Assembly: GCF_000313565.1 (NCBI RefSeq)
Contig: NZ_HE578927.1
Location: forward strand, 168,334-232,333
Direction: 5' to 3'
DNA length: 64,000 nucleotides
Source of the DNA: Dielma fastidiosa
GTDB lineage: Bacteria; Bacillota_I; Bacilli_A; Erysipelotrichales; Erysipelotrichaceae
The first letter of the stretch is position 1, and every line of letters starts with the position of its first letter. Shown here piece by piece: positions 21,476-28,513 of this stretch. The notes beneath the pieces are model-generated. The model worked only from the letters and a program-made list of their open reading frames with translations. It had not been told where the DNA came from and searched no databases. The position numbers and the translations under genes are program-made.

Positions 21476-22588
21476 TTATTTTTTTACTGCATCTGTATCT
21501 GATCCTGTCGCGCTGTCCGTGAGCGTCGACTCAGCCTTCAGCTTACTGTTGTCAGCCGGGCTTGCATCATTAACGCTCGCATCTGATTTGGTTGTATCAC
21601 TCTTAGAGGCGTCACTTGGTGTTGCATCACTCGCTGAAGCATCTGATGATGTGGCATCCGATGGTGTCGCATCAAGATCTTTATTAATCTCATCCCAGGC
21701 ATTTGTTGCCTCGTCTTTTTTCTGATTCTGGTAATCGTTTAGCTGATCATTAAAATTAACATCATCCGAAGTCGCCGTCGGTGTTGAACGGCGATACATC
21801 ATGACAGTCATAATCGTCGAATCCTTCTCCTCCAGCAATTCCTCTTCACTCTTCACAGGTGCCGGCACTTCCTTGGCCTCGATCACTTTATTCAGATCCT
21901 TAACCGCCATATTCGCAGCCGCCTCCTGAGTCAGCGACGGATCAGCTTTCACTGCCTGCTTAATCAGTCTCAGCTTACCGGCCGATACACCTTTGCTCTG
22001 CGCTTCCAACCGCAGCATTTCATTTGTCTCTTCCCCAAGCACGACACCTAAAATGTGATTCTCTACAAAAAACTCATTAACCTTTAGATACAATCTTTCC
22101 TGCAGATTCAATGCCTTCAGCTCATTATCATTCACAACGGTAATCATGACGGCATTATCATCCTTATTCTTATCAATATATCCCATCTTTGTTACTTCAT
22201 CAATAAAATTCTTCGTGGCCTCTTCAATCTTCTGACCTTTGTAATCAAGCCCCGCCAGTACCAGCTCACCATCCTTATTCGTCGCTGATACAGAAATCAC
22301 TTCATCATACATATTGACAGTAAACTCAACGCCCGGATTCACATCCACAGCGACATATGAAACCGGAGTACGCTGGTTCGCTAAGAAATTAAATCCAAAA
22401 ACACTGCCAAACATGATAAACAGCATACATAACGTAGCTGCAATCTTTAACTTTGAATCATCACCATACTGTATTTCATTGCCGACTTCCATGGATGGAG
22501 TGGCATTAATTTCATCGAATTGACCTTTTGTACTCATCACAATCGCCTTTTGATCATGAATTTCCATAATAATCCCTTTTTTGATCAT
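21476..22588 (-). CDS. rsgI: RsgI-type anti-sigma factor
   Basis: A 370-residue single-pass protein. Residues 1 to about 50 form the cytosolic RsgI N-domain (GIIMEIHDQKAIVMSTKGQF) that binds SigI; TM about 50-70 (IAATLCMLFIMFGSVFGFNFL); then the periplasmic RsgI-like middle domain (SYVAVDVNPGVEFTVN). The C-terminus carries about eight pentapeptide repeats D-A-[T/S]-x-S, a low-complexity extracellular stalk rather than a carbohydrate-binding module. It lies 14 bases after sigI. AAAGGAG precedes the ATG. In Bacillus and Clostridium, RsgI proteolysis or ligand binding frees SigI for envelope or polysaccharide responses. Confidence 0.85.
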   Translation of the reverse strand: MIKKGIIMEIHDQKAIVMSTKGQFDEINATPSMEVGNEIQYGDDSKLKIAATLCMLFIMFGSVFGFNFLANQRTPVSYVAVDVNPGVEFTVNMYDEVISVSATNKDGELVLAGLDYKGQKIEEATKNFIDEVTKMGYIDKNKDDNAVMITVVNDNELKALNLQERLYLKVNEFFVENHILGVVLGEETNEMLRLEAQSKGVSAGKLRLIKQAVKADPSLTQEAAANMAVKDLNKVIEAKEVPAPVKSEEELLEEKDSTIMTVMMYRRSTPTATSDDVNFNDQLNDYQNQKKDEATNAWDEINKDLDATPSDATSSDASASDATPSDASKSDTTKSDASVNDASPADNSKLKAESTLTDSATGSDTDAVKK

Positions 22589-22602
22589 TTTTCCACTCCT
22601 TT

Positions 22603-23307
22603 CTATTTTTTAAACGGCAAATATTCTTTTAATGTCTCTAAATCCGAATCCGCAAGAATGATCCCCGCTATTATATATTTACGATAGCTCTCGATCTTTT
22701 TTCGTGGTATTAAAAAATTTTTTTCAATTTCTTTTAAAGGCAGTGAATGATCATTCATTATTTTTTCTACTAATTCAGGACGTTCTAAAATCTTCTGAAT
22801 CGCATTATTTACATAATGCCGAGTAATTAAATGCTTAGGTGAGCTTTTAACTAAATCCTGAAAGGTAATACTAAAAGCCTGAAGCTTTTCATTCAGTTCA
22901 TTGATTTCCGCGATGCGGATTGACTGTTCATAGCTGTCAGCATAACGCTGAATCGCGTCTTCCTTTAATTCGTCGATTTCATCTTCCTCTTCATTATATA
23001 AACCAAACGACTTCTTATTTTCGCGGTAAAGCGATGATTTAAAATAATCAAGCAGTCTGGCTTTAATTACCATTTTCGCATACAGTAAAAAATTCCCTTT
23101 ACCATTAAAACGGTCAATTGCCTCATTAAACGCCATTAAAGCGATAGAAAGTTCTTCGTCAACGCCATAAGTGACATAGCGATGTGCACATTCGGAAGTA
23201 AATGAAGCAATAAATGGCTTGTATTGAGAAATAAAGTCATTGCGCATAGTTTCATTCTGTTTGATTTCTTCAATGTCAAAGTTCACTTCAACGGCGGCAT
23301 TTTGCAA
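22603..23307 (-). CDS. sigI: SigI-family RNA polymerase sigma factor
   Basis: A 234-residue sigma-70-family factor of the SigI group. The region-2-like segment YKPFIASFTSECAHRYVTYGVDEELSIALMAFNEAIDRFNGKGNFLLYAKMVIKARLLDYFK and the C-terminal SigI-type helix-turn-helix (LPLKEIEKNFLIPRKKIESYRKYIIAGIIL) are clear. I place the start at TTG 23307, nine bases after AGGAG; another TTG at 23316 directly abuts the ribosome site and is less likely. It pairs with the adjacent anti-sigma gene. Confidence 0.87.
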   Translation of the reverse strand: MQNAAVEVNFDIEEIKQNETMRNDFISQYKPFIASFTSECAHRYVTYGVDEELSIALMAFNEAIDRFNGKGNFLLYAKMVIKARLLDYFKSSLYRENKKSFGLYNEEEDEIDELKEDAIQRYADSYEQSIRIAEINELNEKLQAFSITFQDLVKSSPKHLITRHYVNNAIQKILERPELVEKIMNDHSLPLKEIEKNFLIPRKKIESYRKYIIAGIILADSDLETLKEYLPFKK

Positions 23308-23359
23308 ACGAATCAACTCCTAACATATTTACATTACACTTTTTTATTTTTTTGTAAAG

Positions 23360-25865: not shown

Positions 25866-25897
25866 AATAAAAAAGCCGATCTGTATAACCCAGATCA
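25866..25897 (-). terminator. Terminator after the iron-type alcohol dehydrogenase gene
   Basis: On the minus strand GCTGATCTG pairs with CAGATCGGC and is followed by TTTTTTATT. It separates the T-box operon from the phosphodiesterase operon. Confidence 0.85.
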
Positions 25898-25904
25898 GCA
25901 CTGA

Positions 25905-26972
25905 TTATGCGGTAAAGTCCTCTAGCTTTTCAATTGCCTGACGAAGATTTTCTTCCGTGACTTTAATTGCCGATACATTCACATCCGGCACCTGTGAAGC
26001 TCTTTTTAATACGCCGTCAAGATCTGCCATCGTGCAGTCAAGATCTGCAAGCCGCGTCGGCAGTTTAACACTTTGATAGAATGGCAGCAGCTTTTGCAGC
26101 TCATCAAGCTTATCATCCAGCATCAATTGAACTAATAATCCATAAGAAACAATTTCACCATGCAGATGCTTTTCTTCAACCTTTTTCAAGGTCGTAAAGC
26201 CATAGCACATCGCATGAGCTACCACACTGTTATAATCATTAATTACATAATTAGAAACAAGGCCGGTTGATACGATGATGGCCAGTACCGTTTCCTCTAA
26301 GGCCTTAGAATTTCGATTTGCCTGACAGTCAGCAAGCGCCGCCGCACCATAACGGACCAATGGATCACCGCACAATACAGATAATGTTACCCCCACATTA
26401 TTCGCATGATCCAATTCACGGCCGCGGGAGCTGAATTCCGGTTCATAGCCCTTAGCTAACGTATCTCCAATGCCTGCCCAAAGATATACATCCGGTGCTT
26501 CCGCTATCACTTGTGTATTAATAAATGTATGATGCGCGGGCCGATCACGGTGATAGAGGTTTTTAAATACCCCGTTAGGTTCATACATCGCACAGACAGA
26601 AGTTACCGCCGCACACGTTCCCGCGATGGTTGGGAAATTAAACAGCTTTTTATTCATTTGATCACTTAAGACCTTGCATGTATCCAATGCCTTGCCGCCG
26701 CCAAAAGCAAAAATCATATCCGCTGCCTGTACCGCTGCGTTCTGTTTCAGCATTTCCACATTTTCATAAGCGGCTTCACCGCCATACCATAAAGTATCCA
26801 AAATCTCTATCGTACTGTCCTTTAAAGCTTCTTTCAACAGATGGCAGGCTTTAGCCAATGCCCGATGACCGCCGATACAGACTGCCTTATTGCCATAATC
26901 CTTGCAGATTTCTGCTGCTTCTTGATAAACATCCGTACCGACACTATAACTTGGTAAAAATACATTCGACAT
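25905..26972 (-). CDS. Iron-containing alcohol dehydrogenase, glycerol-dehydrogenase-like
   Basis: A 355-residue NAD(P)-dependent dehydrogenase of the group III/GldA type. The coenzyme-binding FAFGGGKALDTCK is near residue 90; likely metal ligands lie in ELDHANN, SVVAHAMCYGF and EKHLHGEIV. The substrate could be a polyol or a hydroxy/keto compound. It is second in a two-gene operon 17 bases after a BASS-family transporter and under an Ile-type T-box, which suggests it acts on an organic acid or alcohol linked to isoleucine supply rather than glycerol. That last step is inference. Confidence 0.8.
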   Translation of the reverse strand: MSNVFLPSYSVGTDVYQEAAEICKDYGNKAVCIGGHRALAKACHLLKEALKDSTIEILDTLWYGGEAAYENVEMLKQNAAVQAADMIFAFGGGKALDTCKVLSDQMNKKLFNFPTIAGTCAAVTSVCAMYEPNGVFKNLYHRDRPAHHTFINTQVIAEAPDVYLWAGIGDTLAKGYEPEFSSRGRELDHANNVGVTLSVLCGDPLVRYGAAALADCQANRNSKALEETVLAIIVSTGLVSNYVINDYNSVVAHAMCYGFTTLKKVEEKHLHGEIVSYGLLVQLMLDDKLDELQKLLPFYQSVKLPTRLADLDCTMADLDGVLKRASQVPDVNVSAIKVTEENLRQAIEKLEDFTA

Positions 26973-26989
26973 AATAGTTCCTCACTTTC

Positions 26990-27994
26990 TTAAGCCTTTG
27001 CCGCTTCGGCTTCTAATTCAGGCATCGCCTTTCTTGATTCCTGCTTCTCAAGCGGCATAGATGCGTATACATTAGCCAATACGGAGCCAGAAATCTGATG
27101 AGCTACAGTGGCTACCGCTGCCGGCAGCGCACATAAAGGATTGGCAAACTGTCCGGCCAAACCTACCGCAAGGCCTGAATTCTGTAAACCTACCTCAATC
27201 GAGATGGCTCTTTTCTTAGTCGTCTCTAAGCCAAGCAGCCGGGCAAACAGCCAGCCGACGCCAAAGCCCAGCCAGTTATGCAGACAAACCGCCGCAATCA
27301 CCATTAAACCAGAAGTTATTAAACGCTGAGCATTCGGAGCCACACACATACCGACAATTGTCACAATGCTTAAGACGCTGACCATAACTAAGACTTTATC
27401 AAACTGCTTAACGGCATCCCCGGCTAACCGATGCACTAATACACCCGCCGCAATCGGTACTAATACGACCTGAACAATACTCAGCAGCATTGTCAGCATA
27501 TTTACCTCAACCCATTGGCCCGCTAAAACATAAGTAAGCAAAGGGGTAAGCAGCGGCGCAAGCAAGGTCGATACCATTGTCATGCCAACTGATAACGGCA
27601 CATCTCCCTTGGCTAAGTAGGTCATTACATTACTTGCCGTACCGCCGGGACAAGTTCCCAAAAGCACTAAGCCAACCGCTAACCCGCTGTCAAGATTTAA
27701 TCCCTTGGCCAGCAGGAAGGCTCCCAGCGGCATAATCGTAAATTGAGCCAGACAGCCAATCAGCACATCCTTCGGTCTTGAAAAAACAATTTTGAAATCA
27801 TTCAGCTCCAATGTCATGCCCATACCAAACATAATTACCCCTAATAAAACATTAGTCAGTGACTGCCCCGCTACCTTGATTTGAGCGACAGCCGTGAAGA
27901 AGGAAGGCTGAATCAGTGAAAAAGCCGCAACAGCCAATACGATCCATGCCATGTACTTCCCTAAAAAATCACTTAAACGGTTTACGAATTTCAT
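26990..27994 (-). CDS. Bile acid:sodium symporter family (BASS) transporter
   Basis: A 334-residue integral membrane protein with about ten hydrophobic helices. The family signatures MFGMGMTLELNDF, GTCPGGTASNVMTYLAKGDVPLSVGMT and the EVGLQNSGLAVGLA crossing motif are present. Bacterial BASS proteins carry organic anions with sodium; PanS transports ketopantoate and plant BASS2 pyruvate, so a keto acid is as likely as a bile acid. GGAGGAAATGTAA precedes the ATG. First gene behind the T-box leader. Confidence 0.85.
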   Translation of the reverse strand: MKFVNRLSDFLGKYMAWIVLAVAAFSLIQPSFFTAVAQIKVAGQSLTNVLLGVIMFGMGMTLELNDFKIVFSRPKDVLIGCLAQFTIMPLGAFLLAKGLNLDSGLAVGLVLLGTCPGGTASNVMTYLAKGDVPLSVGMTMVSTLLAPLLTPLLTYVLAGQWVEVNMLTMLLSIVQVVLVPIAAGVLVHRLAGDAVKQFDKVLVMVSVLSIVTIVGMCVAPNAQRLITSGLMVIAAVCLHNWLGFGVGWLFARLLGLETTKKRAISIEVGLQNSGLAVGLAGQFANPLCALPAAVATVAHQISGSVLANVYASMPLEKQESRKAMPELEAEAAKA

Positions 27995-28016
27995 TTACAT
28001 TTCCTCCTGTAATAAC

Positions 28017-28290
28017 AAAAAAAGGCTTTATCTCTAAGAGACAAAACCTTTGGTTCTGCGGTACCACTCCAATTACTGTCAAAGACAGTCACTCTTCTGA
28101 CATCTCCGGAAAAATCCTTTTAATGCAGAACACCGTAACGAGTGTTAATCGTTCTAACTTACTTGAACCCTTTCAGCAGACTGTTCATGGGTGATTTTCC
28201 TAAACCTGACGCTCTCTGTTTTTCACCGGTCAACAGCTCTCTGTGCAGCGTCCTTGCTTAGTACTCTTCCCAATCATCACATTTGTTATG
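28017..28290 (-). ncRNA. T-box riboswitch, isoleucine-type specifier
   Basis: A minus-strand leader of about 270 nt ahead of the BASS transporter. It has AGAGAG-CTGT...GGTG-AAA-ACAG in the apical part of stem I, an AGTA/GAAA specifier-loop (loop E) pair, the T-box AATTGGAGTGGTACCGC at 28058-28074 and a following terminator (AAGGTTTTGTCTC...GAGATAAAGCCTT then T-run). Aligning the specifier loop to the known glyQS layout (GAAA-specifier-A) places the specifier at 28193-28195 as ATC, isoleucine. UGGU in the T-box bulge fits a tRNA with discriminator A. Uncharged tRNA-Ile would allow read-through. Confidence 0.88.
28058..28074 (-). promoter_or_regulatory. T-box antiterminator core
   Basis: Reads AATTGGAGTGGTACCGC on the minus strand, matching the conserved T-box sequence that pairs with the tRNA 3' end. 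Confidence 0.9.
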
Positions 28291-28296
28291 GTCTCT

Positions 28297-28324
28297 ATTA
28301 TACAGGAATGAAAACGATTGTCAA
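28297..28324 (-). promoter_or_regulatory. Promoter of the T-box operon
   Basis: On the minus strand TTGACA (28319-28324) and TATAAT (28297-28302) are spaced by 16 bases, both at consensus. Confidence 0.85.
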
Positions 28325-28438: not shown

Positions 28439-28513
28439 GCCGTCTTAGCTCAGGGGTAGAGCAACTCCATGGTAAGGAGTAGGTCGGAGGTTCAATTCCT
28501 CTAGACGGCACCA
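28439..28513 (+). tRNA. tRNA-Thr (GGT)
   Basis: A cloverleaf with acceptor arms GCCGTCT/AGACGGC, D-arm AGCTC...GAGC, anticodon stem ACTCC/GGAGT with loop ATGGTAA (anticodon GGT), T-arm with GGTTCAATTCC, discriminator A and encoded CCA. It stands alone with its own promoter and terminator. Confidence 0.96.

Follow-up and report, generated by a model that had tools for sequence, protein, structure and literature searches.

Which need is served by an operon that places a transporter of the BASS/SBF family and a dehydrogenase of the Fe-ADH family behind an isoleucine-type T-box? The question is raised by a 64,000-nucleotide stretch of Dielma fastidiosa (contig NZ_HE578927.1, positions 168,334 to 232,333; hereafter the window), whose genome, G000, spans 3.6 Mb and is 98.5% complete. 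The operon runs on the minus strand from window position 28324 to 25875, in the order promoter, T-box, terminator, BASS gene (product P0002), dehydrogenase gene (product P0001) and terminator, with 17 nt between the BASS stop codon and the dehydrogenase gene. We consider it likely that this is an isoleucine-supply operon, in which a branched-chain 2-hydroxy or 2-oxo acid would be imported and converted via a transaminase to isoleucine; the substrate, the Na+ coupling, the direction and the cofactor are what we infer. Five observations made by sequence point this way: the isoleucine T-box, the gene pair itself, the failure to find ilvC or ilvD in the host, the presence of the same pair behind a candidate isoleucine-rich attenuator in Fusobacteriaceae, and the continuation of three of these operons into ilvE.

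An initial annotation, made from the letters alone, had proposed the promoter, the T-box with its stem I, loop E, core and terminator, the BASS gene and the closing terminator, and all of them held up (Table 1). The T-box matches RF00230 with E 1.6e-27 in the window and E 2.2e-29 in the whole-genome search (rank 6 of 22). Its stem I contains the loop E AGUA/GAA and the specifier loop GAA-A-AUC-A, and the T-box bulge is UGGUACC. Besides scoring over the gathering threshold, the leader has a UGGN-bulge antiterminator (-9.0 kcal/mol, 7-nt bulge) that is exclusive with the terminator (-16.1 kcal/mol), the 3' strand being common to both. The isoleucine codon ATC had also been read in the initial annotation, and it was borne out when the codon position was calibrated on ten G000 leaders; hisZ follows one of them and an aminoacyl-tRNA synthetase gene each of the other nine, gene identities having been assigned by eye from the translations. 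The Rfam columns 'uuc' of 'uGAAauucaCC' gave the right codon in nine of the ten (Val GUA, Ser UCA, Met AUG, His CAC, Tyr UAC, Ile AUC, Leu CUC, Ala GCU and Cys UGC, each before the matching synthetase or hisZ); an extra base in the trpS leader shifts its reading by one position. Read through these columns, the window T-box specifies AUC, the codon also carried by the ileS leader of G000. The element thus shares its RNA family and its codon with isoleucine T-box leaders such as that of ileS, and differs from them in controlling a BASS transporter and an Fe-ADH-family dehydrogenase. If the genes under its control serve isoleucine, as we infer, the codon fits them. At E <= 0.001 the genome has 22 T-boxes, and 17 of these exceed the gathering score. 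By eye, an isoleucine specifier was seen only in those of ileS and of the window. In the accessible part of PMC2494555, seven transporter families are described under T-boxes and BASS is not among them; an entry 'sodium symporter (4x)', given there without further specification, could not be identified.

Table 1. Elements of the isoleucine T-box operon, in window coordinates.
Feature	Position	Strand	Evidence
Sigma-70-type promoter TTGACA-16-TATAAT	28297..28324	-	consensus match 12/12
Ile-type T-box leader RF00230	28034..28286	-	125.9 bits vs gathering 93; model 1-219, full length
Specifier codon AUC (Ile), stem I specifier loop	28193..28195	-	Rfam columns correct in 9/10 calibrating leaders
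T-box intrinsic terminator	28021..28051	-	14-pair stem, T-tract; exclusive with antiterminator
BASS/SBF-family transporter, 334 aa	26990..27994	-	PF01758 161.8 bits
Fe-ADH-family dehydrogenase, 355 aa	25905..26972	-	PF00465 60.9 bits; HcxA-like TCAA motif
Operon-closing terminator	25875..25899	-	9-pair stem, T-tract

The isoleucine route of the host is in agreement with such a role. A search of the window genome for IlvD (PF00920) came up empty, and a single weak match to the ketol-acid reductoisomerase model (PF07991, 21.4 bits), which looked like IlvC, turned out to be GpsA. The genome does encode a branched-chain aminotransferase (BCAT; 491 bits against a cut-off of 307) in a leuA-leuC-leuD-leuB-BCAT operon, where the names other than BCAT were given by eye; it lies behind a T-box whose specifier reads, also by eye, as Leu CUC. 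Since the leu operon and BCAT are present and ilvC and ilvD were not found, it appears that leucine can come from 2-oxoisovalerate and isoleucine from 3-methyl-2-oxovalerate, and that the standard route from pyruvate and threonine, of which IlvC and IlvD were the enzymes searched for, would yield neither oxo acid. The host seems unable to make isoleucine from scratch. The initial annotation had suggested a role for the pair in handling a branched-chain keto or hydroxy acid under shortage of charged tRNA-Ile, and this suggestion is supported by the missing ilvC and ilvD together with the BCAT, as well as by the ilvE operons and isoleucine-rich attenuators of Fusobacteriaceae and the conservation of the transporter pocket and the enzyme motif described below.

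When genome contigs were scanned with P0002, eight loci were recovered, one of which, that of Fusobacterium mortiferum (L133), has adjacent BASS (59% identical) and dehydrogenase (61%) genes. Among 61 genomes of its family, 40 match P0001, and 17 of them together hold 21 genes with 55-65% identity to it. The surroundings of all 21 were examined: nine follow a BASS gene, nine accompany a membrane protein of a 395-aa type, and three (L183, L188 and L189) have other neighbours. Nine Fusobacteriaceae genomes therefore share the pair, with 56-63% (BASS) and 61-65% (dehydrogenase) identity to the window proteins. In three of the nine the order is BASS-dehydrogenase-ilvE, with gaps of 12, 18 and 42 nt and IlvE scores of 428-429 bits against a cut-off of 279. 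Elsewhere, dehydrogenase relatives are found beside transaminases, and one adjoins a gene for the lactate racemase LarA (602 bits against a cut-off of 460). The 395-aa-type membrane protein, with its motif HAGGGFATGNQ (L185 2734-3921 and relatives), is presumably the one named YkvI; the one copy tested had no Pfam or NCBIfam match. In L182 a peptidase-like gene lies between it and the dehydrogenase gene.

Upstream of BASS, all nine pair operons carry an open reading frame (ORF) of 36-47 codons, preceded by a Shine-Dalgarno sequence and containing a run of isoleucine codons, and then a terminator. These leader ORFs have 8-11 isoleucines within 15 residues. A survey that scanned 406 kb in 27 Fusobacterial loci, both strands included, gave 140 such ORFs of 25-60 aa, of which exactly the nine pair leaders reached at least 7 isoleucines in 15 and the other 131 a maximum of 6; none of 5000 first-order Markov sequences (480 nt each) had 8, and a single one had 7. 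In eight of the nine leaders, a segment before the isoleucine run pairs with a segment after it, which also pairs with the 5' arm of the terminator; in L180 this three-segment pairing was only partly recovered by our script. Compensatory changes were seen as CUAACGUAA with UUACGUUAG in L171, CUAACAUAAU with AUUAUGUUAG in L175, and CUAAUAAA with UUUAUUAG and the arm CCUAAU in L133. The pairing was taken from a per-sequence search because the MAFFT DNA alignment of the nine leaders misplaced segment 2 of L133 and L184. L133 and L184 are near-identical and L171-L173 and L175 are close, so that the independent events are fewer than nine.

By their short isoleucine-rich ORF, exclusive hairpins and terminator, these leaders are predicted to be leader-peptide attenuators. 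The ilv operon of E. coli is controlled by such an attenuator, and ilvBNC of C. glutamicum reportedly is as well (PMC11857589). The Fusobacterial leaders resemble these ilv attenuators in the isoleucine-rich ORF, the mutually exclusive pairing segments and the terminator, and differ from them by phylum and by controlling a transporter-dehydrogenase pair. No T-box was detected in the nine pair genomes, and T-boxes over the cut-off occurred in two of the 61 genomes, under strict filters and with at most 31 candidates scored per genome; the accessible part of PMC2494555 likewise gives no T-box in two Fusobacteria/Thermotogae genomes. Given that distant relatives carry a different isoleucine sensor on the same pair, it is probable that the pair turns scavenged keto or hydroxy acids into isoleucine.

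We propose the following course of events. Uncharged tRNA-Ile would be read by the T-box through the AUC specifier and the UGGU bulge, the antiterminator would form, and transcription would continue into the BASS and dehydrogenase genes. The BASS protein may couple Na+ entry to the uptake of a branched-chain acid of the 2-hydroxy or 2-oxo type, the likeliest substrates being 2-hydroxy-3-methylvalerate and/or 3-methyl-2-oxovalerate. An imported hydroxy acid would be oxidised by the dehydrogenase to its oxo counterpart, using NAD(P)+. Isoleucine would then be formed by a branched-chain aminotransferase, whose gene lies elsewhere in the window genome but immediately follows the pair in three Fusobacteria. 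Of the two directions, oxidation in the service of biosynthesis makes better sense because both sensors would open at isoleucine shortage.

The transporter scores above the BASS family cut-off of PF01758 (161.8 vs 24.3 bits), and remains under the cut-offs of the subfamily model TIGR00841 (264.2 vs 326.3 bits) and of the PanS equivalog NF047939 (248 vs 400 bits). Its best PDB sequence matches are 3zuy, 8oyf and 3zux, which we take to be ASBT_NM. P0002 keeps the equivalents of Q77, S114, N115, E260, V261 and Q264, with M263 replaced by L; we assume that these seven residues form the sodium sites of BASS proteins. According to the accessible part of PMC10645422, the pantoate carboxylate in ASBT_NM contacts the main-chain nitrogens of T112 and A113, the 2-hydroxyl contacts G267 and N265, and the terminal hydroxyl contacts H294 and N295. 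The equivalents of T112, A113, N265, G267 and H294 are retained in P0002, and that of N295 is Q. We compared position 295 in 28 relatives (L123 runs into N nearby, and its residue there is unreliable): all ten pair-clade sequences have Q, the pan-operon protein and most of the remainder have N, and S occurs in a clade of standalone BASS proteins under isoleucine T-boxes, which also has V112 and S113. P0002 is thus like PanS and ASBT_NM in fold family, sodium-site residues and the residues for the carboxylate and the 2-hydroxyl. It differs from them in having Q for N295, in its NF047939 score and in being under isoleucine control rather than in a pan operon. A description of plant BASS5 as a transporter of chain-elongated 2-keto acids (PMC10645422, accessible part) offers a further likeness, that of a BASS protein moving amino-acid-derived 2-oxo acids; it is a plant protein, likened here by description and not by sequence. 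Bile-acid transport, which the initial annotation had also disfavoured, had no supporting context and was set aside.

These comparisons bear on the idea that the transporter takes up pantoate or ketopantoate in the manner of PanS, or another organic acid, and that isoleucine control is incidental. In its favour, BASS relatives in the window's order lie in panD-panC operons behind a pan RNA motif (L118, L119 and L132), and P0002 scores 248 bits against NF047939. We nevertheless find this idea highly improbable, given that the cut-off of 400 bits is not reached, that the Q at position 295 and the separate clade set the pair proteins apart from the pan-operon protein, and that pantoate has no known link to tRNA-Ile. 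Two of the three pan-operon copies are broken, L118 by a stop and L132 in two pieces. The pan-operon BASS genes are a natural control for keto-acid BASS transporters.

As to the dehydrogenase, the initial annotation was right about the family, and its term 'iron-type' holds as a family name that says nothing on the metal. Besides its PF00465 match, P0001 has the three metal ligands D170, H253 and H271. It carries TCAA, like E. coli HcxA, where most glycerol-dehydrogenase-like proteins compared have TDAP, the Asp of which is presumably a substrate-site residue of glycerol dehydrogenases. The D121N change in GldA has reportedly been linked to lactate dehydrogenase activity. HcxA (YbdH), hydroxycarboxylate dehydrogenase A by its RefSeq name, is reported to act on 2-oxo and 2-hydroxy acids, including 2-oxobutyrate, and its gene adjoins a methionine transaminase gene. 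P0001 resembles it in the TCAA motif, in the metal-ligand motif AGIGDTLAK and in having transaminase gene neighbours among its relatives, and differs from it in being 32% identical and under the HcxA equivalog cut-off NF007880 (160.3 vs 429 bits).

If the enzyme were instead a dehydrogenase of glycerol or another polyol, its pairing with BASS would be an accident. Glycerol dehydrogenases are its best PDB sequence matches, and relatives of about 43% identity in the window's own family (L056-L080) adjoin RpiB/LacAB-type genes (four loci, L056, L060, L061 and L064; Pfam-tested for L061 only). Such an accident is scarcely credible, since P0001 scores 182.9 bits against the GldA subfamily cut-off of 336 (NF006941), TCAA replaces TDAP, and the pair is kept across distant genomes under isoleucine control. 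The 43% relatives belong to a different subfamily: the four loci have that RpiB/LacAB-type neighbour, and tblastn recovered no BASS gene at any of the 28 loci L056-L083. In the tree, P0001 stands apart from them, within a clade of 22 rows that takes in all close Fusobacterial relatives (support 100/99). An Rfam scan of seven relative loci gave no match.

The window's order harbours a second kind of isoleucine-controlled BASS gene. Of its 315 genomes, 32 match P0002; at 16 BASS loci examined, a T-box stands just upstream in seven, and all seven specifiers are AUC. These seven genes stand without a dehydrogenase of this family, and form a clade apart from the BASS proteins of the window and of Fusobacteriaceae. 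One could imagine that BASS alone supplies isoleucine, by import of 3-methyl-2-oxovalerate, and that the dehydrogenase runs in reverse as a redox valve whose hydroxy-acid product is exported; amino-acid fermenters commonly carry out reductive 2-hydroxy-acid steps. We regard this as unlikely, because both sensors would turn the dehydrogenase on at isoleucine starvation, when removal of an isoleucine precursor would be harmful, and because three operons run on into ilvE.

Several observations weigh against the assignment of the pair to isoleucine supply. Neither P0001 nor P0002 reaches any equivalog cut-off. IlvD is present (445-458 bits) in four of the nine Fusobacterial pair genomes (G330, G339, G340 and G342), and G336 has only a lower-scoring IlvD/Edd-type protein of 380 bits. 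IlvD is also found in all 16 order genomes examined. These include all seven with a standalone BASS gene under an isoleucine T-box. On both counts the pair is not tied to auxotrophy, and IlvD absence as its general companion was not upheld: outside the window genome the co-occurrence is mixed. The order and phylum samples yielded no close relatives of the pair. Finally, other dehydrogenase operons have leucine-rich leaders (L185, with 15 Leu of 51, L186, L188 and L190) or mixed Leu/Ile leaders (L174, L176 and L177), so that the enzyme itself need not be isoleucine-specific. The ORF control statistics cover isoleucine only. Where the dehydrogenase accompanies the 395-aa-type membrane protein (L174-L190), these leaders and their terminators suggest a putative leucine version of the same salvage system.

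The distribution of IlvD is also relevant to a different entry point, in which 2-hydroxybutyrate would be imported, oxidised to 2-oxobutyrate and passed into the IlvBN-C-D pathway. The reported activity of HcxA on 2-oxobutyrate would suit this route, as would a threonine ammonia-lyase gene near the relative L187 (507 bits against a cut-off of 379) and the IlvD of several genomes carrying BASS. It is set against the lack of IlvD and IlvC in the window genome and of IlvD in four Fusobacterial pair genomes (G315, G332, G335 and G341); F. mortiferum lacks IlvD. We judge this entry point decidedly unlikely.

To return to isoleucine supply from branched-chain acids, the phylogeny of the pair might indicate how it came under two sensors. 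In the BASS tree, the Fusobacterial pair proteins, nine in all, form the sister group of P0002 (support 100/99), and among 392 genomes of the window's phylum, a close relative of P0001 was found in the window genome only; the sample has no other genome of the window's genus. A transfer of the pair between phyla, in one direction or the other, is likely from these sequence relationships. We tentatively suggest, with somewhat less than even confidence, that some anaerobes possess a dedicated, isoleucine-sensed salvage of branched-chain 2-hydroxy acids, a waste of other fermenters, by a BASS importer, an HcxA-like oxidase and BCAT; that the pair came under two unrelated isoleucine sensors after inter-phylum transfer; and that branched-chain hydroxy acids may serve isoleucine auxotrophs as a currency of cross-feeding. 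In the part of the literature accessible to us, we found no BASS gene under a T-box, no Fusobacterial isoleucine leader peptide and no report of the pair; the accessible parts of PMC3766115 and PMC4833913 contain nothing on it. Two unrelated RNA sensors of one amino acid on an orthologous pair are stronger functional evidence than either alone. The proposed role provides a testable substrate class for one subgroup each of the BASS and Fe-ADH families, neither of them named by an equivalog model, and a possible way for an organism without ilvC and ilvD to meet part of its isoleucine need.

Some further features were noted in passing. The T-boxes of the window genome (L001-L022) include leaders before apparent amino-acid ABC transporter genes (L005, L010, L012, L013 and L020) and one before a PHP-type protein (L018). 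In the window, a tRNA-Thr (GGT) gene at 28439-28513 is divergent from the T-box operon, and positions 21476-23316 hold a gene for an RsgI-like anti-sigma factor in tandem with a sigma-70-region-2 gene, SigI-like by context.

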